Assembly (NCBI GenBank): GCA_013297775.1
Contig: JAAFIL010000026.1
Coordinates: 1 to 49,527, forward strand
Origin: Bacteroidota bacterium
GTDB lineage: Bacteria > Bacteroidota > Bacteroidia > B-17B0 > Aurantibacillaceae
DNA: 49,527 nt
Direction of reading: 5' to 3'
Positions 3,558-31,938 of this stretch are shown here, one piece after another. The position numbers and the translations under genes were made by a program. Position 1 is the first letter of the stretch. Every line of letters begins with the position of its first letter. The notes under the pieces are model-generated. The model did no database searches. It worked only from the letters and a program-made list of their open reading frames with translations, and was not told the DNA's origin.

Positions 3558-4037
3558 TCATTTTTTATAAATAAGAGCCACGGCATAAGCGTTAACGCCC
3601 TCTTCGCGACCCACATACCCTAATTTTTCGTTGGTGGTTGCTTTAATGGAGATTTCGTTTTCGGTAACTTTCATAATAGGGGCTAACACCGCTTGCATGG
3701 TTTTAATGTGTGGATTAATTTTTGGAGCTTCTAAACTCAAGGTGGCATCTACGTTTCCGATGGCATATCCATTTTCATCGAGTAATTGCACTACCTCGGC
3801 TAATAATACTTTGCTATCGGCACCTTTGTATTTGGGATTGGTGTTGGGGAAATGAAACCCAATGTCTCTGAGGTTAGCAGCACCTAACAAGGCATCGCAT
3901 ATAGCGTGTAGCAACACATCTGCGTCGCTGTGCCCTACGCAACCTTTGTCAAACTCTAAGCGAATGCCTCCTAACCAAAGTGCTCTCCCTTCTCCTAGGG
4001 GATGCACGTCGTAACCAAATCCAACACGTATATTCAT
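3558..4037 (-). CDS. ispF: 2-C-methyl-D-erythritol 2,4-cyclodiphosphate synthase
   Basis: Enzyme of the MEP isoprenoid pathway. It cyclises 4-diphosphocytidyl-2-C-methyl-erythritol 2-phosphate with release of CMP, as a homotrimer with a metal at each active site. At 159 residues it has full family length. The metal ligands are in GYDVHPLGEG (Asp and His) and GHSDADVLLHA (His). DIGFHFP and SIKATTNEKLGYVGR, both conserved in IspF, are also present. It is the last gene of pgk / lipoprotein / ispF: the lipoprotein stop codon lies one base upstream of the ispF ATG, so translation is probably coupled. Confidence 0.96.
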   Translation of the reverse strand: MNIRVGFGYDVHPLGEGRALWLGGIRLEFDKGCVGHSDADVLLHAICDALLGAANLRDIGFHFPNTNPKYKGADSKVLLAEVVQLLDENGYAIGNVDATLSLEAPKINPHIKTMQAVLAPIMKVTENEISIKATTNEKLGYVGREEGVNAYAVALIYKK

Positions 4038-4038
4038 T

Positions 4039-4233
4039 TTATTTTTTTAAGTAACAATCTGTATCGCTCGAAGACAAACTTTTGCAATACCGTTTGGCTT
4101 GCCCCTTTGTGCCTTCTTTTTCGCCGGCATTATACGTTTTAAAACTATTTTTACACTCGCAGGTGTAGGTTTTTTTGCAAGCACTTGTAAGCGTGATGAG
4201 GCTGGCGACTATAAGTATAAATATATATTTCAT
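4039..4233 (-). CDS. Small Cys-rich putative lipoprotein
   Basis: A 64-residue protein starting with a short lipoprotein signal peptide that ends in the lipobox LTSAC, so lipidation at Cys19 is predicted. The mature part is about 45 residues, polar and Lys/Ser-rich, with four more cysteines (TCEC, YCK, CYLK) that could form disulfides. Its ATG overlaps the pgk stop codon (ATGA) and its stop lies one base before ispF. This spacing is the best evidence that the short frame is a real gene. The function is unknown; similar small lipoproteins with a C-x-C motif are common in Bacteroidota. Confidence 0.75.
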   Translation of the reverse strand: MKYIFILIVASLITLTSACKKTYTCECKNSFKTYNAGEKEGTKGQAKRYCKSLSSSDTDCYLKK

Positions 4234-5426
4234 GCGTTTTCGATGGCACTTACGCCCGGTAAATTTCCTTGTTCGATGTACTCTAATAAGGCACCGCCGC
4301 CTGTGCTTACATAGCTTACTTGTGTGGATAAGTTGTATTTATTAATAGCGGCCACACTATCGCCGCCGCCTATTAATGAATATGCCCCTTGTTGAGTGGC
4401 TTCTACAATAGCGTAGGCGGCTTGTTGGGTACCATTTTCAAAATTACTCATTTCAAAAACGCCCATAGGACCATTCCATAAAATGGTTTTACTGTTTTTA
4501 ATAACGTCGCCATATATTTTTACACTCTCGGGGCCAATGTCTAAGCCCATCCACGCATCGGGTATTTGATTGATAACAACCGTTTGAATGGCGGCATCGT
4601 TAGCAAAGTTATCGGCAATAACGGCATCAACGGGTAAATGCAATTGAACGCCTTTTGCTTTGGCTTTTTCAATGAGTTCGCGGGCGGTGTCTAATCGGTC
4701 GTCTTCACATAACGATTTACCAATTTGTCCGCCGAGGGCCTTTATGAAGGTAAAGGCCATGCCACCACCAATTAAAATATGATTGGCACGATTCATGAGT
4801 TGTTCGATGATTAAAATTTTATCGCTCACTTTTGCGCCACCAATAATAGCGGTAAATGGTTTTTCGGCATGGGTTAGCACTTTAGTAATGCTGGCTATTT
4901 CGTTAGCCATTACATACCCAAAACATTTCTTCGAGGGTTCAAAAAACTGAGCCATTACCGCCGTAGAGGCGTGGGCGCGGTGGGCGGTGCCAAACGCATC
5001 GTTTACATAAACAGTACCGTGTTGACTTAGGGTTTTTGCAAAGGACTCGTTTCCTTTTTCTTCTTCTTTATAAAATCGTAGATTTTCGAGGAGCAATACT
5101 TCGCCTGGTTTTAAGGCGGCTGATTGAGCTAATGCTTCGGGGCTAATGCAATCGTTGATAAATTGAATGGGTACGCCCAGTAATTGACTAATGCTACTTA
5201 CAATGTGGCGCAACGAATATTTATCGTTAGGTCCTTCTTTAGGCCGACCCAAATGGCTCATCAACACAAGGCTACCACCATCTTTCAAAATTTTTTTCAA
5301 AGTTGGAATAGCGGCTTTAATACGCGTTAAATCACTCACTTCCAATTGGTCGTTGAGAGGCACGTTAAAATCAACACGAACTACTGCGCATTGATTGGCA
5401 AAATTTATGGAGTCAACCGTTTTCAT
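4230..5426 (-). CDS. pgk: Phosphoglycerate kinase
   Basis: Cytosolic glycolytic enzyme that transfers phosphate from 1,3-bisphosphoglycerate to ADP. At 398 residues it has the normal bacterial length. Motifs in order are RVDFNVPL, SHLGRP, RFYKEEEKG, VNDAFGTAHRAHAS, GGAKVSDK, GGGMAFTF, LWNGPMGVFE and the nucleotide loop GGGDSVAA. The substrate arginines and the catalytic hinge motifs are all present. A -7 box (TATATTTG, 5441-5448) precedes it. It is the first gene of a compact operon with a small lipoprotein and ispF. The product of Pgk's neighbouring glycolytic steps (glyceraldehyde 3-phosphate and pyruvate) feeds the MEP pathway, which may explain the pairing; this last point is inference. 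Confidence 0.97.
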   Translation of the reverse strand: MKTVDSINFANQCAVVRVDFNVPLNDQLEVSDLTRIKAAIPTLKKILKDGGSLVLMSHLGRPKEGPNDKYSLRHIVSSISQLLGVPIQFINDCISPEALAQSAALKPGEVLLLENLRFYKEEEKGNESFAKTLSQHGTVYVNDAFGTAHRAHASTAVMAQFFEPSKKCFGYVMANEIASITKVLTHAEKPFTAIIGGAKVSDKILIIEQLMNRANHILIGGGMAFTFIKALGGQIGKSLCEDDRLDTARELIEKAKAKGVQLHLPVDAVIADNFANDAAIQTVVINQIPDAWMGLDIGPESVKIYGDVIKNSKTILWNGPMGVFEMSNFENGTQQAAYAIVEATQQGAYSLIGGGDSVAAINKYNLSTQVSYVSTGGGALLEYIEQGNLPGVSAIENA

Positions 5427-5440
5427 AATAGATTAGAACG

Positions 5441-5448
5441 CAAATATA
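5441..5448 (-). promoter_or_regulatory. -7 promoter box of the pgk operon
   Basis: Minus strand TATATTTG, an exact TAnnTTTG match, 14 nt upstream of the pgk ATG. The -33 position holds only T-rich sequence without a clear TTG. Confidence 0.45.
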
Positions 5449-5498
5449 AAGCAATTGAAATGGGTTCATTAAAAAGAAATGCACAAAAACCTAACGAA

Positions 5499-5942
5499 TT
5501 AAAACCGTCCCTTTGCCACTACCATGCAGGTAAACCTACTAATGCAGCACAGTTCGTTGGCTTCGTTAAATAATTTAATTTCCCAAATGTGAAGTTTACC
5601 ACTAATGTTAATGGGTTTGCACACGCCTTTTACATAGCCACTTAGCACGGCTTTAATATGATTGGCATTAATTTCGATGCCTACGCCAATAAATAACTCG
5701 CGGTTAACGCAACACCAAGTGGCCACGCTGCCCATAGTTTCGGCCAAGGCAACCGATGCGCCACCATGTAACAAGCCAAAAGGTTGTTTGGTTTTTTCGT
5801 TAACGGGCATGGTGGCTACTAAAAAGTTGTTACCCATTTCGGTAAACACAATGCCCATGTTTTGGCCCAAGGAGCCTTGGTTTAAAGTATTTAAGGCCTC
5901 AAGGTTTAATGTACCTTGCCAAATTGAAGAAAGAGTTTCCAT
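5499..5942 (-). CDS. Hotdog-fold thioesterase (PaaI/MenI-like)
   Basis: A 147-residue single-domain hotdog protein that should hydrolyse an acyl-CoA thioester. The motif QPFGLLHGGASVALAETMGSVA is the family core: the HGG turn, then the Glu of the central helix that acts as general base. The segment VGIEINANHIKAV matches the strand that follows in the PaaI and YbgC-like dihydroxynaphthoyl-CoA thioesterase (MenI) group. A menaquinone role is plausible for a Bacteroidota cell, but no other men gene is nearby, so the substrate is open. A -7 box TATCTTTG lies at 5951-5958. Confidence 0.85.
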   Translation of the reverse strand: METLSSIWQGTLNLEALNTLNQGSLGQNMGIVFTEMGNNFLVATMPVNEKTKQPFGLLHGGASVALAETMGSVATWCCVNRELFIGVGIEINANHIKAVLSGYVKGVCKPINISGKLHIWEIKLFNEANELCCISRFTCMVVAKGRF

Positions 5943-5950
5943 AAGATTTA

Positions 5951-5958
5951 CAAAGATA
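5951..5958 (-). promoter_or_regulatory. -7 promoter box of the thioesterase gene
   Basis: Minus strand TATCTTTG (TAnnTTTG), 8 nt upstream of the ATG at 5942, which implies a very short leader. No -33 TTG is evident. Confidence 0.4.
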
Positions 5959-6001
5959 CACGTTTGCTTGTGGAGGTCTTTATAAATTTGAAAGCTATCT
6001 C

Positions 6002-6031
6002 TTGTTTTTTAATTAAATTTCTTTACATTTA
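6002..6031 (+). promoter_or_regulatory. Probable promoter of the second T9SS-type gene
   Basis: TTG (6002-6004), a 19-nt spacer, then TACATTTA (6024-6031), which differs from TAnnTTTG at the last base only. The ATG at 6038 is 6 nt further on, so the transcript could be nearly leaderless. Confidence 0.4.
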
Positions 6032-6037
6032 TTCTAC

Positions 6038-7096
6038 ATGCGAAAACATAAATGGTTTATACTTTGTGTATGTTGTGTATTTAGCCTTTCGTTGTATGGG
6101 CAAATGGTTTGTAATGCCTCGGGCGATGTGTTTGTGTTTACCTCTTACGATGGGGGCAATTTAACGATTGATGTGGACATGAATATTGCGGGGATTAAAA
6201 TTGGAGTTCGCTCGTATGAACGCACGAGCGTTACTATTGTGGGTACTTACTCGGCTAATGTAGATACTGTAATTATTAGAGGCTTTAATAGCGGCAACAA
6301 TCATTGTCCGCCAGCAGTTACTACCAATACCGTTGTGCAAGCGGCGCCCGCTACTGTAAAAATTTATAACAACGGTAGCTTTTCGCCTTACTATAATTAT
6401 ACGTGTGGTGGATTAACGGCTACTAATGCCATCATCTCTTTTTTTACGAATGGTGCGGCTTCGCGTTTAAGAGGTTATACGGGGTTTTATGGGTGTTGGT
6501 GTAACCCGCAAAAGCTTAGTATTTCGGCTTTGTATTGTTGCAAAGGGGCTTACAGTTGTTTCACGGCATTGCCATTAACGCTTGTAGATTTTAATGCCTT
6601 TAAGAAAAGTGCAACCGCTACACAATTAACGTGGAGGGTTGAAGATGAAACGGAATTGGTGCATTACGATGTGCAGTATAGTGAGGATGCGGAGCGGTTT
6701 GTAACTTTTCAATCGGCGTTAGTAAAGGCACAAAAAGCAAGCCCAACCGTTTATTCGGTTACACATACTCATTTTTTTGTGGGAAATAAAAATAGATACT
6801 ACCGCTTAAAATATAATTACGCCAACGGTTCGCATACTTACTCTGATATTATAAGTGAAACAGATGTAACGGAACAAGTACCCGTTCTTGTAAATACATA
6901 TACCTCTAAAACACTTCATTTTACGGGCATTGTAGGCGAGCAAACAATTGAGGTGAGCAATTATAATCAGCAGTTGTGTTTAAAAAGTACCCTTTCGGTG
7001 GATAGGCCGTTTGTTAATGTGGAACAGTTGCCCTCTGGCTTTTATTTTATAAAACACATTGGCAGTGGGCAGTTTTATAAGTTTATAAAAGAGTAG
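6038..7096 (+). CDS. Secreted protein with probable T9SS C-terminal region
   Basis: A 352-residue protein with a signal peptide (core FILCVCCVFSLSLYG, cleavage near QMVC). The first half is Gly/Asn/Thr-rich with eight to ten cysteines (e.g. CGG, CWCNP, CCKGAYSC), suggesting a disulfide-bonded beta structure. From about residue 190 comes LTLVDFNAFKKSATATQLTWRVEDETELVHYDVQYSEDAERF, the linker-type module ('L..F.a......v.L.W.t..E.n...F.ve.S.dg..f') often found just before T9SS sorting domains. The C-terminus (LPSGFYFIKHIGSGQFYKFIKE) matches the last strands of a type A sorting domain, although the usual YPNP motif is missing. Function unknown. It is convergent with the Hsp70 operon, 3 bp away. 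Confidence 0.75.
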   Translation: MRKHKWFILCVCCVFSLSLYGQMVCNASGDVFVFTSYDGGNLTIDVDMNIAGIKIGVRSYERTSVTIVGTYSANVDTVIIRGFNSGNNHCPPAVTTNTVVQAAPATVKIYNNGSFSPYYNYTCGGLTATNAIISFFTNGAASRLRGYTGFYGCWCNPQKLSISALYCCKGAYSCFTALPLTLVDFNAFKKSATATQLTWRVEDETELVHYDVQYSEDAERFVTFQSALVKAQKASPTVYSVTHTHFFVGNKNRYYRLKYNYANGSHTYSDIISETDVTEQVPVLVNTYTSKTLHFTGIVGEQTIEVSNYNQQLCLKSTLSVDRPFVNVEQLPSGFYFIKHIGSGQFYKFIKE

Positions 7097-7099
7097 GGT

Positions 7100-8710
7100 T
7101 TAATTAATTTGTAATTTTTCAAATTCTTTAACGCTTCCTGTTTTTTCAGCGTTTATAGAATCTTTGTAAATAGAACTCCCAATATTTTTATAACGAAGAT
7201 TTACCGTTATGTCATCTGTATTTTCTATGTAAATCTCATTTATTTTCGACTTTTGTTTTTGCTTTTTTTGGATGGATTTGAAAAACAAAAACCGACTATT
7301 AAAATAGGCGTAATAATTTAAAGGTGTTTCTTCAAAATAGCCAGGGATAGGGAGTAATTTGAATTGACCCGATCCTGTTTTACTTAATGTAATATGAGAT
7401 TTTGAATTCATCCAATGGCGTCCGAAATAAAAACTAAGGTCAATAGTATCTTTAGAAGTCAATACCAACGAGTCTTTAGCGGGTAAAGCTTTTAACAAAA
7501 TGCTATCACCAAAGTGTTGAAACAACAATACGTCGTAAGTAGATGCGTTTATAAAACGCGTTTTAAACAAGCCGCTATCTGGCGTTGTGTAATTAAAATT
7601 GGGGAATAAAGGATTTTCGTTTTTTTGTAAAACAACTTTTCCACCAACTTTATTGGCGTTTAATAATGTATCTTTTTTTAGTTCGTATAGTATAAAGTGC
7701 CTATAATCTTTAAAACTGACAGTGGTGTAGTTATTTAATACGGATTGAAAATTTCCTAAAGAATTTATGGAGTCAAATGAGGAAGACTTGGGCCCCGAAC
7801 AAGTATTAGCCATGCGCACAACAAGCACCAATGCTATAACAATGAACCAAATTATTCTAAACGAATCGGTTCCTTCGCTACTTGTATTTGAATTGTTTTG
7901 AGTGCCACGAACAAAAATAGCATGGTTATTTTTAATGATGCGTTGCAAATTTTCATCATCTATATTTAAACGCATGAGTTCGCCACTTATTTTTAGGTGA
8001 ACTGCATTTTCGCCATACTTACCATTGTGGCTAGAACTCAAGAGGTTAACAAGTACCAATGCAAAGGAATTTCTTAACTCAACGAAATCGTTGGGCAAGC
8101 GATTTAAAAATACGATTAACTTATTTTTATAAATAAATTCCATTTGGGTTTCTAATGCCCGTCCATTTAATAATCCGGCATCTAGTTTTTCTAAAAGTTG
8201 ATTTAAAATTTCTAGAATAGTACTCAGGGGTTTATAAATAGTTTCAAAAACGATTTGACGAAACTCTGAACTTAACAACTCTAATAAAACTAAAGCATGA
8301 CCCGCATCTATATATAATTTTTTATTCAAGTAAGTTTTATAGAAAACGTTTAACGCATCTGTTAAAAGTGTTTCAAATAGTGTTTGATGGTGCGGTGTTT
8401 CAACTATTTTCGAAAGTGCCGTAATGCTTTTGATGTCGGGAAATTGTTGTGGATTTTCAAAAAAAAGTAAAACCGATTTGTGCGAATAAATTTGATGGTG
8501 TACAAAAAAGCTATCGTTATCTTTTAAATCTTCTAACTGTTTTAAGATCGCATCTTTAGAGTAGGACTTTCCGTTTATGGTTAAATCAACAGTTCCATAT
8601 AAATTAAACTCGGCTAAAAATCGTTTTTTTAAGCGCGCAATATCTAAATCTGCTGGCTCGGTATTATCTTTAAAATAATCGAGTATATAAAGTGGCGATT
8701 GATAAGACAT
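7100..8710 (-). CDS. Membrane protein of the Hsp70 cassette, unknown function
   Basis: A 536-residue protein that I do not recognise. Residues 1-280 look soluble and mostly helical, Leu/Asn-rich. A single hydrophobic segment lies at about 284-301 (IIWFIVIALVLVVRM). The C-terminal 235 residues are polar and strand-rich, with Lys/Asp/Ser loops and three 'K.DSL/KDT' segments. With one membrane span the two halves would sit on opposite sides of the inner membrane. The start lies 5 bp after the Hsp70 stop, so it belongs to the same operon. It may recruit the Hsp70 to the membrane or sense an envelope signal; this is inference from position only. Base composition is like the neighbours. Confidence 0.75.
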   Translation of the reverse strand: MSYQSPLYILDYFKDNTEPADLDIARLKKRFLAEFNLYGTVDLTINGKSYSKDAILKQLEDLKDNDSFFVHHQIYSHKSVLLFFENPQQFPDIKSITALSKIVETPHHQTLFETLLTDALNVFYKTYLNKKLYIDAGHALVLLELLSSEFRQIVFETIYKPLSTILEILNQLLEKLDAGLLNGRALETQMEFIYKNKLIVFLNRLPNDFVELRNSFALVLVNLLSSSHNGKYGENAVHLKISGELMRLNIDDENLQRIIKNNHAIFVRGTQNNSNTSSEGTDSFRIIWFIVIALVLVVRMANTCSGPKSSSFDSINSLGNFQSVLNNYTTVSFKDYRHFILYELKKDTLLNANKVGGKVVLQKNENPLFPNFNYTTPDSGLFKTRFINASTYDVLLFQHFGDSILLKALPAKDSLVLTSKDTIDLSFYFGRHWMNSKSHITLSKTGSGQFKLLPIPGYFEETPLNYYAYFNSRFLFFKSIQKKQKQKSKINEIYIENTDDITVNLRYKNIGSSIYKDSINAEKTGSVKEFEKLQIN

Positions 8711-8715
8711 AATAG

Positions 8716-11241
8716 TTACCCAAGCCCCGTCCCTTTAATTTTAACTTCCGAAACGGCATGATGTGTATTGGCTAATACTTGATTAAATACGCCACGTAAT
8801 TCTTCATAGTTTTTTCTTTCTAAAGCTTTATCGCCCATTTCGGCAAAGCGTTTGGTTAAGCTAGGGTCTTTAAAATGATCGCTACTTAAATGGATATAAT
8901 GCAAGTAATAAGAAGTGAGTAAGGTAGGTGTAAAAAATATCATTTTATTTAACAGGCGATTCAGTGTTTTTAATTGACCTTGCACCAAAAAAGAACTTTT
9001 AGTAGTGGCCATTGCATTAGCCTCGTTGCTTTTGAGTTGTTCAAACTCGGTTTTTAAGTTAGCGGGCACATCGTCAAAAGTTTCGATCCAATAATTAATG
9101 GTATTACGGTTTTCGTAATATTCGGCTTTAACTTTAACCGATAAACTCGTGTTGTCGTTACTAAAATAACTTTGTGCTAATTTGCGTTTATATTCTTCTA
9201 ATTGGTATTTCTCATCCGATAAACTTTTTTCGTTTAGCTGCATGGCTTTGGCATACAACTCGTTTAGCTTTTCGAGTATGAGGTGTAATTCTTGCGCCTT
9301 TTCATAATCTTCTTGCTGTGTGGCCTTCATAATTTCCACATCCATTTCGTTCTTCATCTCTTTAATCTCTTCGCGCAATTTACTAACGCTAACGTATTTT
9401 TCGCTCGGACTAAACACTTCGGCTACTTCGTAATCTATTAATAATAAATTCGCTTTCACCGATACATCGCGGCTTTCCGAAACTTCAATTTTGATTTCAA
9501 TATCACTGCCTTTAATTAAATCGGCGGTTAATTGTTTGCCATTAATTTCGATTAAGCCAATAATTTGATTGGTGCTGGGATGCGCTTTATGATTGCCTTC
9601 TAAGACATTAATAATCAATTGATCGTCGCTTTTAGCTTTAATGGTGCGCGATACTTCTTTATAAATTGTTTTTGAAATGGGTAAAATACTGTTGCGTTCA
9701 AATACTAATTCGCAGCGGGTCGTATTGTTATGCACGTCATCTACCTCTATGCAAATATCTTCGGGAAGTGGTTGCCCACTTAAACTAAACAAGCCTTGTG
9801 TAATATCAAGCAACTGTTGTAAGGTTGGTAGTTCTTCGTGTTGCTCAGTATATACTTTAAAGGTAAAAGCATTCAACGTATTTTTACGCAGCAATACAAA
9901 CTCACCTATTTTAGCTTGTAAGGGTTTAAACCCACTGTCATAGCCTCCATCGGCGCGCGTGATGCGGTAGAAATAAGTACCTTGTAAGGCTTGGCACATA
10001 CCAGTAATGTATTCTTCGCTATCTTTTGAATGTTTGTTATACGCCAGTTTAATTTGAGGTAAGTTGCTTACAGGATTTGTTAATGTTGGCGTTTCGCTAA
10101 CGTTTATGTCAGTTACAACAGGTGTTGCTTTCACTTTTGAAGCAGCGTAATAGGCCGCCCCCACAGCCACAGCGGTAGTTGGGTCGGCACTGTAATTGGT
10201 CTTAATACCAGTTTGTTCTTCAACCATACGACGCACATAAGGAATGTAGGTGCTGCCACCAATCATAATAATTTCATCCACATCATTAGCTAACATGGCA
10301 TTGGCGTTTAACACCTCTTCAATTAACTGAATGCTTCGGCTTACTTTTTCGGCAATGCAGGCGTTTAACTCTTGGTCTGTTACTTTAAAATACACCTCGT
10401 GTTCGTTGCCACTAAGTGTAGTAAATGTAAACTCTACTTCTACTGAACTGCTCACGCTTAATTCTTTTTTAGCTTCTTCGGCTTTAAGCATTAAAATAAA
10501 AAATAGTTTTTCGTAAGGACCGTTTTGTTTGGGTAGTTCTTCTTTTAATTCGGTTAAACCCGTTTGTGCCATTAATTTAGGCACCATCACCTCCATCATA
10601 AAACTGTAATCAAAATCTACGCCGCCCAAAAAATTATCGCCACGGTGATCTACAATTTTTAATTCGTTTTCTTTTATGCTTACCAAAGCCACATCAAACG
10701 TGCCTCCACCTAAGTCGTAAACCAACCAATGTTTACCGTTTTGTGTAGCCTCTTCTTCGTTCGCGCTATTAAAAAAAGCTAACGAGGCAGCAATGGGTTC
10801 TTGCAACAACACTACTTCTTTAAAGCCAGCTTCGTAACCCGCTTTTTTAGTGGCATTACTTTGCATGGTGTCGAAGCTCGCTGGAATAGTAATAACGGCA
10901 CTATCAATGGCTTCGGAGGTGTGAATGAAATTTTTTAGTTCTTTTAAAACCAAAGCCGATAACTCAATGGGCGAATAGAAGGTACTGTTGCTTGGTACAA
11001 AGTAGTTTTCGCCTGTTCCCATTTTGCGTTTAAAACTGCTAAATACATTTAACGGATCTTTTACCAACCACTCGCGCGCCTTATCGCCCACAATGATGCG
11101 CTCGCCTCTAAACGCCACACAACTCGGCAGCGTTTCTTTAAACCCAACGGGGTTTTTAAACACCTCCACATTTTTACCATTAAAACGAGCAATTAACGAA
11201 TTGGTGGTTCCTAAGTCTATACCAAAATTGATGGTTTGCAT
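8716..11241 (-). CDS. Unusual Hsp70-family chaperone with inserted domain
   Basis: An 841-residue protein. Residues 1-370 form a full Hsp70 ATPase domain: GIDLGTTNS, AVITIPASF, QEPIAASLAF, VYDLGGGTFD, LGGVDFD and IMIGGSTYIPYVRR. The usual hydrophobic interdomain linker (DVLLLD type) is not visible. Instead about 125 residues (395-520) with no Hsp70 counterpart intervene. Residues 519-605 then match the substrate-binding beta domain (LPISKTIYKEV, INVLEGNHK, GLIEINGKQL, DIEIKIEVSESRDVSVKA). A charged helix at 622-690 contains a stretch (KATQQEDYEKAQELHLILEK) reminiscent of UVR motifs, followed by a 150-residue tail without an EEVD-like end. It is longer than DnaK (about 640 residues) and clearly not the housekeeping DnaK. 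It is the middle gene of a three-gene operon, 8 bp after the small gene upstream and 5 bp before the membrane-protein gene. Confidence 0.9.
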   Translation of the reverse strand: MQTINFGIDLGTTNSLIARFNGKNVEVFKNPVGFKETLPSCVAFRGERIIVGDKAREWLVKDPLNVFSSFKRKMGTGENYFVPSNSTFYSPIELSALVLKELKNFIHTSEAIDSAVITIPASFDTMQSNATKKAGYEAGFKEVVLLQEPIAASLAFFNSANEEEATQNGKHWLVYDLGGGTFDVALVSIKENELKIVDHRGDNFLGGVDFDYSFMMEVMVPKLMAQTGLTELKEELPKQNGPYEKLFFILMLKAEEAKKELSVSSSVEVEFTFTTLSGNEHEVYFKVTDQELNACIAEKVSRSIQLIEEVLNANAMLANDVDEIIMIGGSTYIPYVRRMVEEQTGIKTNYSADPTTAVAVGAAYYAASKVKATPVVTDINVSETPTLTNPVSNLPQIKLAYNKHSKDSEEYITGMCQALQGTYFYRITRADGGYDSGFKPLQAKIGEFVLLRKNTLNAFTFKVYTEQHEELPTLQQLLDITQGLFSLSGQPLPEDICIEVDDVHNNTTRCELVFERNSILPISKTIYKEVSRTIKAKSDDQLIINVLEGNHKAHPSTNQIIGLIEINGKQLTADLIKGSDIEIKIEVSESRDVSVKANLLLIDYEVAEVFSPSEKYVSVSKLREEIKEMKNEMDVEIMKATQQEDYEKAQELHLILEKLNELYAKAMQLNEKSLSDEKYQLEEYKRKLAQSYFSNDNTSLSVKVKAEYYENRNTINYWIETFDDVPANLKTEFEQLKSNEANAMATTKSSFLVQGQLKTLNRLLNKMIFFTPTLLTSYYLHYIHLSSDHFKDPSLTKRFAEMGDKALERKNYEELRGVFNQVLANTHHAVSEVKIKGTGLG

Positions 11242-11249
11242 ATCTTCTT

Positions 11250-11549
11250 TTATTGATTTTCGACAATCACCACACCTTTTTGTAACAGTTGATTGTGATG
11301 AAAAACGATAGGTTTTATAACTTGTGTAACAACCAGTTGTTGCGTGGCCTCGCCAACAATATTGGCTTCTAAATCGGTTCGCGTATCGGTGTATTTTTCG
11401 TGCAAAGGATTTTGAATGGTATAATCCATATCGCTAAAGGCTTGATGGATGCGTGAAAGAAAACGGGCGTAGCTTTCTTGCTTGTTTTCTTTTGTCAATT
11501 TTTGTTCCATCAAAAACAACTGATTTAAAATGTCGAGGTGTTGTTTCAT
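11250..11549 (-). CDS. Small protein preceding the unusual Hsp70
   Basis: A 99-residue protein: an N-terminal helix rich in Leu/Lys/Glu (residues 1-40), a proline turn (NPLHEKYTDTRTDLEA), then strand-like NIVGEATQQLVVTQVIKPIVF and LLQKGVVIVE. The helix-then-beta plan and the ending '..VIKP....LLQKGVVIVE' faintly recall the C-terminal beta domain of GrpE nucleotide-exchange factors. The similarity is too weak to name it so. Its stop lies 8 bp before the Hsp70 ATG, so it is co-transcribed and a good candidate for a dedicated co-chaperone. It is probably the first gene of the operon, with 301 bp to the next gene upstream. Confidence 0.75.
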   Translation of the reverse strand: MKQHLDILNQLFLMEQKLTKENKQESYARFLSRIHQAFSDMDYTIQNPLHEKYTDTRTDLEANIVGEATQQLVVTQVIKPIVFHHNQLLQKGVVIVENQ

Positions 11550-29304: not shown

Positions 29305-31938
29305 TTACCCATTAGCACTTGTGCCAAAACGAAACCCTAAATTCTGACGGTTGCCGTCTCTTTCAACCACTAAGTGCCTCACATCTTCTAAGGTTAATTC
29401 CATCAATTGCCTTGGGGTGCGCTCGTTGGCAGGTATCGAAGCCAAACGTAAATTTTGCTTCATAATAACGTCGCCAGTCATTTGACGCACCGACCGTGCA
29501 TTCCCGAAAAACTTATCGCGGGTTTCGTACAAATCGTTCAAATAATTTTTGATGTATTCGGTGGCTTCGGTGGTGGGGGTTAACTGTTCTTTTTTAAGTA
29601 GATTAAGTGCAATTTCTAATAATTGATCGGTGTTATAATCTTCAAAGTGAAAGGTTTTATCAAAACGAGATTTGAACCCTGGATTGCTCTCAATAAACAG
29701 ATTCATGTTTTGAGGATAGCCCGCTACAATAACACCAAATTTTCCACGCTCGTCTTCCATACGTTTTAAAATAACTTGAATGGCTTCTTGTCCAAAACCA
29801 TGAGAGCTATCGGCATTGGCCAACGCATACGCTTCATCAATAAATAAAATACCCCCCATGGCATCTTCAATTTTATCGGCGGTTTTAATAGCGGTTTGCC
29901 CAACGTAACCCGCCACCAATCCTTCGCGATCTACCTCTACCACATGCCCGCGCTCTAATAAACCCAGGGCTTTATAAATTTTAGCAACAATGCGAGCAAG
30001 TGTTGTTTTTCCGGTTCCTGGATTTCCTGTAAACACGGCGTGTAACGAAAACCTCGACACAACGTCTTTACCCACTTCGTTATAAAACCGAATCAATTTC
30101 ACCAACTCGCTAATATCTTGTTTTATTTTATCCATTCCGCTTAACTCATTTAACTCAGCTAAAGCGGCTTGAAGTTGTTTGTCGTTTACTTTTAGGTTTA
30201 ACTTCTTTTTTTGATCGCCCATAAAAATATCCAATAAATCATCTAGTTGAATGGTCGCTAATTCTTCTTTGCTTAATGCCTCCATGTTATCGGTATTCAT
30301 TAAGCGTAAGCCCATGTTTATTTTTGCTTCGTTTATAACGCTATACACAAAGCGTGCGTTTCCAAAATGTTCATCGCGCTTGCGGTAGGCTTCGGTTAAT
30401 TGTTCTTTCAAATAAGTATCGGCCTCGGCACTAAACGATACCTCGGTTTTGTTCGCAGCAAAAATAGCAATGTCGTATAACTCTTCGGGCAAGTAATCGT
30501 CGAAGTGAAAGTAATGCGCCACCCGCGATTTTAGTCCGGGATTACTTTCAATAAAGGTTTGCATTTCTTTAGGATATCCCGCACCAATAATGGCAATGTC
30601 GCCTGGTCCGTCGCTCATTTCTTTTAAAAGAATTTCAATCACTTCTTTTCCAAAATCTTTCGAGTCGTCATCGCTGCGTGCTAATGCGTAGGCTTCATCA
30701 ATAAATAAAATACCGCCTCGGGCACTATCAATTGCTTTTTTTGTTTTGGGGGCGGTTTGCCCAATAAACTCGCCCACTAAAGCGGCTCTATCTACTTCCA
30801 CTACATGGCCTTTACTTAACAAGCCCATGCGTTGGTAAATTTTACCCAACATCTTTACAACGGTTGTTTTTCCTGTGCCAGGATTTCCAGTAAAAATACT
30901 GTGTAAGGCTAATTTATCAGAGTCGTTATACCCTTTTTCTTTACGCAATTTGGTAAACTTTAAGTAAGTAATATTTTCTCGAACCGATTTTTTTACACCC
31001 TCTAAACCAATTAACGCATCTAGTTCGGCTAACAATTCTTCTAAGGTTTTTTCTGGAATTTCTTCGACCTTGGTGTCGTCGTTTACCGACCAATTGGCGG
31101 TTGTACCAATCGTTTGTTCGAGAGCCATTAAAAAGGGCGTTTCGCCTTCCACATCTTCTTTCCCACAATTAAAAACAACGGCACCAATCAATACATCGTT
31201 AAATACAACTTCGAGGGTATATTTATCATCGCGCCAAGTGCCGCTCGTTTCGTTGCCCCAGCCGCGTTCAAACACATACGTGTGATTAAGTTTGCCCGCT
31301 TCTACAAATCCCTTTTGAACAATAGTGGCTTTGGGTTGACCCGAGTCGTCGTAATAGTTTAAATAAAATTCGTAGTGATAATCTAACTGACTAAGGTTTT
31401 TGAACTGAACTTCGGCCCAAATGTATTTTGTGTTTTCTTTACTAAATTCATGGAGGTATTTCCGATCTTTAAGGTTTGAGCCGTCTATATTACTACTGTA
31501 CAATTTAATATACTCTAACTTGAGGTAAGGATTATTGTTATTGCTAACGAGGCCTACATCGTTAATGTGAAACGTTTGCTCACCAACCAATACCTCATCT
31601 ATAAAGGCTTGCCACTTATAGCTGCCTTTTTTCCAAAACGAACCTAGTGTTGAATTTCCCCAGCCATCGCGAACAAAAAAAATATTTTCTTCTTTCTTTA
31701 CTTGAACGGTGGAATCGAGGTTGCAAATTTCTTTGTTGTTGGCCAAGTCAATTGCTTTTAAACTTACTTTAGCACTCCAATCTTGTTCATCGAACCACTT
31801 GTTATAAATGGCTAATTCGCAACGTATGTAATCTACTTCGCTTCTGTCGAACGCTGTTCGGTAACGTTTTCCAGAGTTCGCCATCCACTCGTTATTGCTA
31901 TACACATTAAGGCTTTTAAATTTGAATCGTTGCTCCAT
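29305..31938 (-). CDS. Tandem CbbX/SpoVK-like AAA+ ATPase with duplicated N-terminal domain
   Basis: An 877-residue cytosolic protein. Two AAA+ modules of the CbbX/SpoVK type are present. Module one has Walker A GNPGTGKTT (351-359), Walker B GILFIDEAYALA (from 409) and the conserved IIGAGYPKEMQTFIESNPGLKSR. Module two has Walker A at 638-646, Walker B at 696-707 and VIVAGYPQNMNLFIESNPGFKSR. Both carry the HFGNAR / FFGNARSVR arginine-finger region. Residues 1-127 and 135-258 are two copies of one strand-rich domain, sharing '..F.R.GWGN...G.W....Y...v..n.vliG...F'. CbbX-type ATPases remodel protein complexes. The N-terminal domains probably recognise the client, which is unknown. It is transcribed alone. 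Confidence 0.88.
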   Translation of the reverse strand: MEQRFKFKSLNVYSNNEWMANSGKRYRTAFDRSEVDYIRCELAIYNKWFDEQDWSAKVSLKAIDLANNKEICNLDSTVQVKKEENIFFVRDGWGNSTLGSFWKKGSYKWQAFIDEVLVGEQTFHINDVGLVSNNNNPYLKLEYIKLYSSNIDGSNLKDRKYLHEFSKENTKYIWAEVQFKNLSQLDYHYEFYLNYYDDSGQPKATIVQKGFVEAGKLNHTYVFERGWGNETSGTWRDDKYTLEVVFNDVLIGAVVFNCGKEDVEGETPFLMALEQTIGTTANWSVNDDTKVEEIPEKTLEELLAELDALIGLEGVKKSVRENITYLKFTKLRKEKGYNDSDKLALHSIFTGNPGTGKTTVVKMLGKIYQRMGLLSKGHVVEVDRAALVGEFIGQTAPKTKKAIDSARGGILFIDEAYALARSDDDSKDFGKEVIEILLKEMSDGPGDIAIIGAGYPKEMQTFIESNPGLKSRVAHYFHFDDYLPEELYDIAIFAANKTEVSFSAEADTYLKEQLTEAYRKRDEHFGNARFVYSVINEAKINMGLRLMNTDNMEALSKEELATIQLDDLLDIFMGDQKKKLNLKVNDKQLQAALAELNELSGMDKIKQDISELVKLIRFYNEVGKDVVSRFSLHAVFTGNPGTGKTTLARIVAKIYKALGLLERGHVVEVDREGLVAGYVGQTAIKTADKIEDAMGGILFIDEAYALANADSSHGFGQEAIQVILKRMEDERGKFGVIVAGYPQNMNLFIESNPGFKSRFDKTFHFEDYNTDQLLEIALNLLKKEQLTPTTEATEYIKNYLNDLYETRDKFFGNARSVRQMTGDVIMKQNLRLASIPANERTPRQLMELTLEDVRHLVVERDGNRQNLGFRFGTSANG

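Follow-up and report, generated by a model that had tools for sequence, protein, structure and literature searches.

Gene layout and architecture of the Hsp70

The window, by which we mean the whole stretch of 49,527 nucleotides analysed here, carries on its minus strand three genes, S, H, and P, arranged head to tail in that order; the open reading frame list confirms the gaps of 8 and 5 bp that a sequence-only reading of this DNA had given. S (11250-11549) encodes a 99-aa GrpE-like small protein predicted to be a nucleotide exchange factor, an assignment based on its reading frame, its upstream position in relatives, and a match to the GrpE profile. H (8716-11241) encodes an 841-aa divergent Hsp70 with an inserted domain, as judged from the reading frame, Pfam, the alignment, a structural model, and individual residues, and P (7100-8710) encodes a 536-aa partner protein defined by its reading frame, model, and linkage. 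Against Pfam, H matches HSP70 with an E-value of 2.8e-68, the best stretch being residues 6-388, and no family reaches its cut-off for S or P. NCBIfam yields only sub-threshold matches for H, to 14 families that include DnaK, HscA, MreB, and a YegD-type chaperone, and no match at all for S or P. A scan of the window with what we take to be the Bacteroidota promoter consensus gave 4 matches against 4.15 expected, and these were dismissed as chance. Elsewhere in the window, at 29305-31938, lies a gene for an 877-aa protein with two AAA domains and an AAA_lid_6 domain.

The AlphaFold2 model of H, made from an alignment of 55 sequences, has a mean pLDDT of 88.1 and a pTM of 0.81. In both model and alignment the ATPase (nucleotide-binding) domain takes up residues 1-367 (10141-11241, on the minus strand like all features below) and keeps every catalytic residue tested. 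It is followed by a connector (residues 368-394; 10060-10140), which the model leaves disordered at residues 375-390, where pLDDT falls below 50, and then by an inserted beta-sandwich domain of about seven strands (residues 395-482; 9796-10059), for which searches of Pfam and of PDB sequences found no relative and whose topology was read from secondary structure. A conserved segment (residues 483-493; 9763-9795), located by superposition and alignment, leads into the substrate-binding beta domain, SBD-beta, with eight strands (residues 494-612; 9406-9762; strands at 496-610 in the model). The latter is identified by the model, by superposition, and by profile comparison, hhalign against the substrate-binding domain of DnaK giving an E-value of 4e-4, which supports homology. 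Thereafter come C-terminal helices that are longer than the lid of a normal Hsp70 (residues 613-824; 8770-9405; mostly helical from 619 to 824 in the model), one of which had been described as a UVR-like charged helix; that label comes from inspection of the letters, and Pfam shows no UVR match for it. The protein closes with a tail (residues 825-841; 8719-8769) ending in GTGLG, and such short glycine-rich ends recur among its relatives. In the 62 of 81 loci with the expected start motif, the C-termini (8719-8733 in the window) are GTG[IL] in 31, of an IGF type in 15, of an LGLK type in 9, TG[IL] in 3, G[IM]GI in 2, and something else in 2. The glycine-rich tail is possibly a docking peptide.

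Between the end of the ATPase domain (residue 367) and the first SBD-beta strand (residue 496) lie 128 residues, made up of about 27 of connector with a disordered core and about 88 of beta-sandwich. The sequence-only reading had come close with about 125 residues, but had placed the start of SBD-beta at 519 rather than at about 496, and its view that the interdomain linker had been replaced proved half right. The insert is there, as a predicted beta-sandwich of about 90 residues, but in the model SBD-beta docks canonically, as in ATP-bound BiP (5e84), and the conserved segment appears to take the place of the linker. VIA-align superposes H residues 1-613 on 5e84 with a Z-score of 46.8 and an rmsd of 2.3 over 456 aligned residues, and superpositions that reach model residues 611-615 have rmsd values of 2.2-2.7 for the BiP and 7kzu rows. 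Since H superposes on ATP-bound Hsp70s, the insert does not abolish docking; in the model the ATPase domain and SBD-beta adopt the docked arrangement of the ATP state. Superpositions that extend to the lid of open DnaK give rmsd values above 30 against the H model, so the C-terminal helices of H are placed differently.

In some of the rows for ATPase-domain chains that contain a linker (7rax, 2qwo, and 7nqr), the last aligned H residue is 484-489, whereas other rows stop earlier (455-458); because the superposition rows end so unevenly, we infer the equivalence of residues 483-493 to the linker. In the model this conserved segment just before SBD-beta appears to stand in for it. The segment ends in G-Q-P-L-P ahead of the first SBD-beta strand and is kept in relatives, an apparent invariance that is inflated since QPLP[ENQ]DIC served as a search motif; among the four pattern-free loci, L108 and L110 differ there. 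A loose DnaK-type linker pattern occurs in 18 of 18 DnaKs against 4 of 55 H relatives, in all four of them inside the insert. The region beside the position of the H insert is reported, in the part of one DnaK paper available to us, to be free of insertions (PMC8910936).

A quick tree of the ATPase domain, which came with long-branch warnings, groups 20 H rows in one clade (SH-aLRT 98) and 19 DnaK rows in another (98); E. coli HscA and HscC, both long-branched, fall on the DnaK side (87). The best reading is that H belongs to an Hsp70 lineage distinct from DnaK, HscA, and HscC.

Conservation, linkage, and mobile copies

Relatives of H were collected by scanning contigs with C-terminal regions taken from three H proteins, which yielded 137 relatives; we retained the best 80. 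Two short motifs led to these 80 loci, one being the QPLP[ENQ]DIC of the linker-like segment; neither motif falls within S, P, the catalytic sites, or the J-domain contacts. With the window they make up 81 loci, leaving out L024, whose record is shared with L048, and L107-L110, which have short flanks. By title, nearly all of the best 80 relatives are from Bacteroidota, Spirosoma and Chitinophaga among them, the other titles being an uncultured bacterium (L066), a member of Candidatus Caenarcaniphilales (L090), and perhaps an Algicola sp. (L097).

The sequence-only reading would have been contradicted had the three genes parted in other genomes; they do stay together. S is present at 79 of the 81 loci, on the same strand and no more than 150 bp upstream of H in 72; it is missing at L053 and at L074, the latter cut by the end of its contig. 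P is present at 73 of the 81, always within 1.5 kb, upstream or downstream and on either strand, so that all four orientations occur. Its copy number is one in 55 loci, two in 14, three in 4, and none in 8, counts that omit a P fragment of L075. As the set is present in many other genomes, it is no chance arrangement. Protein distances are also correlated, with rho values of 0.565 for H and S (45 loci), 0.596 for H and P (33 loci), and 0.448 for S and P (34 loci), none of 1000 permutations being as high for any pair; common descent alone may account for this.

Among 24 genomes of the same genus, a DnaK-type match (E 1e-30) was found once in each of 20 and in none of the other 4, and the only full-length H relative was in G025, a genome that belongs to another family. 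Its locus (L048) holds S and H without P, and next to them a divergent gene (about 3740-6277) that reads as an 845-aa PP2C-phosphatase-like protein with a membrane span. As a check free of motifs, we searched 296 genomes sampled from the phylum, and the sample was apparently identical for H, S, and P. H was found at E-values up to 1e-5 in 10 of the 296, as a close relative in 6 and a distant one in 4, and S in exactly the 6 genomes with a close H. P was found in 8, namely 5 of the 6 with S and a close H and 3 others (G042, G061, and G265), which at the thresholds used have neither S nor H. With the window P alone as query only 2 of the 296 genomes were matched, because P is poorly conserved. 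From this co-occurrence, S and H are tied tightly to each other and P more loosely.

The neighbourhoods of the set bear on whether it serves in phage defence or conflict, with the chaperone acting as a switch, which we consider distinctly unlikely. Two mobile copies point that way. The conjugative Pseudomonas plasmid NZ_CP070507.1 (L151:5361-10341) carries P, S, and H, with TPR repeats ahead of the P core, and the Haliscomenobacter plasmid NC_015512.1 (L152:5208-17134) carries a distant relative, an insert-bearing Hsp70, with TerB, a kinase fused to an AAA ATPase, and an S-like domain fused to a membrane coiled coil, beside brxL and pglZ. Two sets of 120 proteins also differ, those encoded near the trio matching 119 PADLOC families and those encoded further away 39, but these figures count families rather than proteins, and one protein can match many. 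Moreover, no PADLOC model matches S, H, or P (0 families at E 0.1), and in 17 loci the set lies in a housekeeping setting, between neighbours of folC/murF type in 8 and of trpS/dprA type in 9. These neighbours were named by reading their sequences, as were the TerB-like genes that follow H in 12 loci. The set on the Pseudomonas plasmid lies near transposase and PAPS-reductase-family genes.

Beyond these loci, distant insert-bearing relatives of H also occur: three of their genomes belong to a different class within the phylum, and a fourth to the same class (L111-L114). Upstream of H, 3 of these 4 loci have an S-like sequence, each running off the stretch read, and the fourth starts inside H. 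The gene downstream is a kinase or AAA gene in L112 (on inspection of its sequence) and in L113 and L114 (by Pfam), and on inspection is neither in L111. Compared with the trio, the sets of L112-L114 and NC_015512 share the insert architecture and the upstream S-like protein, and a kinase, an AAA protein, or both replace P.

Partner contacts of H and the nature of S and P

Among the 55 aligned relatives, with positions numbered as in E. coli DnaK, the catalytic residues D8, T11, K70, E171, D194, and T199 are kept in all 55, which together with the Pfam match upholds the canonical ATPase domain that had been noted in H. The J-domain contacts have fared otherwise. N170, which we take to be such a contact, has become Q in 55 of 55; R167 is R in none and V in 38; and Q378 is Y or F in all 55. 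Two further positions are changed too, T173 being I in 54 and R151 being S in 50. By comparison, all five positions are canonical in 18 of 18 DnaKs of the phylum, and E. coli DnaK, HscA, and HscC keep R167, N170, T173, and Q378, whereas YegD does not. The same contact residues are missing from four H relatives that were identified independently of the motif scan, and R167, N170, and Q378 are also gone from five distant relatives. D35 in the HPD motif is described as bonding with R167 and Q378 in DnaK (PMC8215388), and a second paper regards R167 as the central arginine in J action (PMC7289447).

Because the J-contact positions are changed in every relative tested, H is probably not driven by canonical J-proteins, and the start of its cycle by a canonical J-domain is, from its residues, improbable. 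Changed contact residues are no proof of lost J-protein binding, and the two J-domain proteins encoded elsewhere in the genome of the window could act on H in another way. The sequence-only reading had proposed that H couples ATP and substrate differently, on the ground that the linker is interrupted. Altered coupling remains likely, and the stronger reason for it is the loss of these contacts rather than an insert that abolishes docking.

Some positions that would meet GrpE are altered as well. R56 and L257, which we presume to be GrpE contacts of DnaK together with R261, are kept in 0 of 55 relatives, and R261 in only 2. DnaK has what we take to be two salt bridges across its nucleotide cleft. 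In the relatives the K55-E267 pair persists (E in all 55, K or R in 49 of them) and R56-E264 is lost. The contact residues tell against the view that H still uses ordinary DnaJ and GrpE, its insert merely altering the choice of client. The partners for it exist, since the rest of the genome encodes one canonical GrpE and two J-domain matches, beside one further DnaK-type Hsp70 match, and the modelled docking of H is canonical. Nevertheless, with J-contact residues lost in 55 of 55 relatives, three presumed GrpE contacts rarely or never kept, and a private GrpE-like gene retained, we regard it as the least probable of the alternatives. An open reading frame with a J-domain was present in only 2 of 90 scanned loci, both from Edaphocola (L061 and L062, 5338-6237), where it encodes a CbpA-like J-protein and, with a small and perhaps CbpM-like gene, lies divergent from S.

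The GrpE-like character ascribed earlier to the 99-residue protein shows in profile comparison only. Only 2 of 54 aligned S sequences match Pfam GrpE (PF01025) at all at an E-value of 1, the best at 0.019, and none is above the cut-off; the profile comparison of S with GrpE gives an E-value of 0.0072 at a probability of 5%, against 0.21 for S with P. With E. coli GrpE added, the local E-value is 0.01 for S, 0.0012 for S together with three distant S-like proteins, and 2.5e-4 for those three alone, in which last case the alignment covers the whole GrpE beta-domain; the corresponding global values are 0.17, 6.4e-4, and 6.2e-4. For each of these three profiles, 0 of 60 column shuffles reach the local score. 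The distant S-like proteins are themselves related to S (hhalign E 4.1e-8, probability 95%, 0 of 60 shuffles), and S is thus tied to GrpE through them. The end of the helix and the beta-domain align in register between S and GrpE. At 99 aa, with about 45 residues ahead of the beta part, S has no long dimerising helix. On this comparison of sequences we call S GrpE-like without assigning it to GrpE.

P consists of a helical domain, in most copies accompanied by a membrane span, and matches no known family. Its conserved core is the helical domain of residues 1-275 (7886-8710; alignment and model), which is followed by a single predicted span at about residues 284-301 (7808-7861; hydrophobicity and model), in keeping with the single-span protein already described, and by a beta domain at residues 380-520 (7151-7573; model and comparison), which is probably outside the inner membrane and is absent from short P proteins. 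The model has pLDDT values mostly above 90 over the core of about 275 residues, 78.4 overall, and a pTM of 0.55. We gathered 95 P sequences, of which 79 remained after removal of near-copies and 54 of these entered the alignment. A hydrophobic stretch follows residue 200 in 67 of the 79. Its N-terminal side is the more positively charged one in 45 of these, the two sides are level in 10, and the opposite holds in 12, a balance in favour of a cytoplasmic core. Some P proteins consist of the helical core alone, without span or outer domain. The fold searches, in which Foldseek gave a best E-value of 0.066 and VIA only generic helical repeats (Z up to 9.3), brought up no convincing match to a solved structure and neither exclude a family nor show a new fold; fragments of the VHL beta-domain, in many rows, match part of P over 49-59 columns (probability 0.95-0.99, E about 0.1-0.2), and we take this part to be the C-terminal domain. 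The topology of the first 85 residues had suggested a degenerate J-protein, a candidate to which the profile gave no support: against the J-domain (PF00226), HPD occurs within the first 100 residues in 0 of 54 sequences, and the hhalign E-value is 0.19, with 13 of 60 shuffles as high.

P might instead be a dedicated client, a membrane sensor or effector that S and H exist to fold or hold. That it always lies near S and H where present in the 81 loci, albeit in four orientations and one to three copies, and that it is the least conserved of the three, with 13-27% identity to the window copy, would suit such a role. However, P looks intact in the three genomes of the phylum sample that lack S and H (L198:7318-8652, L199:7122-7970, and L200:7044-8546), and at two of the sites, those of G061 and G265, the neighbours are as in related full-set loci, with S and H missing. 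The P of G265 is an open frame that aligns to its relatives over the whole length, and that of G061 has the size of the short P in L067, so the notion that P is a decaying relic where S and H have been lost was dropped; G042 has a 444-aa P-type protein in a different setting. Since P looks intact in genomes without S and H, it can persist alone, and its persistence in 3 of 296 genomes speaks against strict dependence. Furthermore, the core-only P without a span resembles a docking domain more than it does an effector. We therefore hold the client reading to be unlikely.

A proposed cycle and its place among Hsp70 systems

In the usual account, a J-protein is required to set off the Hsp70 cycle. 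We tentatively favour, while leaning slightly to doubt, the view that the trio is a dedicated machine with a separate Hsp70 lineage, a private exchange factor, a membrane recruiter, and a trigger that is independent of J-proteins. In this machine H, going by its catalytic residues and the model, would bind and hydrolyse ATP and move SBD-beta between docked and undocked positions as usual. S would serve as the private nucleotide exchange factor of H, trimmed down to a short helix plus the GrpE beta-domain. With its single span and its helical domain on the cytoplasmic side, P may bring S and H to the inner membrane, presumably by contacting H, and it is probably the source of the client or of the trigger. 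The cycle would probably fire without a canonical J-domain. Because it adjoins the linker position, the inserted beta-sandwich would be the natural candidate to receive a trigger from P or from the client. A narrower version, that the insert and the membrane-anchored P jointly do the job of the J-domain and that the minimal GrpE-like protein resets the cycle, is one we put forward as doubtful.

The dedicated machine that we favour shares with DnaK/GrpE/DnaJ the ATPase domain, SBD-beta, the catalytic residues, and a GrpE-like gene directly upstream. H differs from DnaK in the inserted beta-sandwich, in not keeping the J-contacts or a VLLLD-type linker, and in its longer C-terminal helices, and the set differs in that S lacks the long dimer helix, no J-protein gene is included, and P is present. 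S and GrpE (PF01025) both adjoin an Hsp70 gene, although S is without the long coiled coil and lies below the family cut-off. Like HscA, which works with HscB, and HscC, which works with DjlB and DjlC, H would be a specialised bacterial Hsp70. According to the part of one article available to us, prokaryotic Hsp70 types are counted as three, DnaK, HscA, and HscC, of which the last two keep J-proteins and dispense with GrpE, and membrane proteins are given as the likely substrates of HscC (PMC8215388). E. coli HscA and HscC keep their J-contacts and, as there described, work without GrpE, whereas the H family reverses this pattern, with an exchange-factor-like gene kept and the J-contacts lost. 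The family offers a natural test of how far an Hsp70 can cycle without J-proteins or an unbroken linker. In GAP1-N2 GTPase systems, mainly from actinobacteria and firmicutes in the accessible text, HSP70 is paired with GrpE (PMC7159879). The trio shares this pairing within an accessory set, but no GTPase or FNIII protein was seen with it. A search of the literature, the coverage of which was partial and poor for subscription journals, found no description of the H, S, and P family.

In E. coli K-12, yegD, which encodes an Hsp70-like protein whose J-contact residues are also changed, lies near yegI (a kinase), pphC (a phosphatase), and yegL, a neighbourhood that recalls the kinase and phosphatase neighbours of some H relatives.
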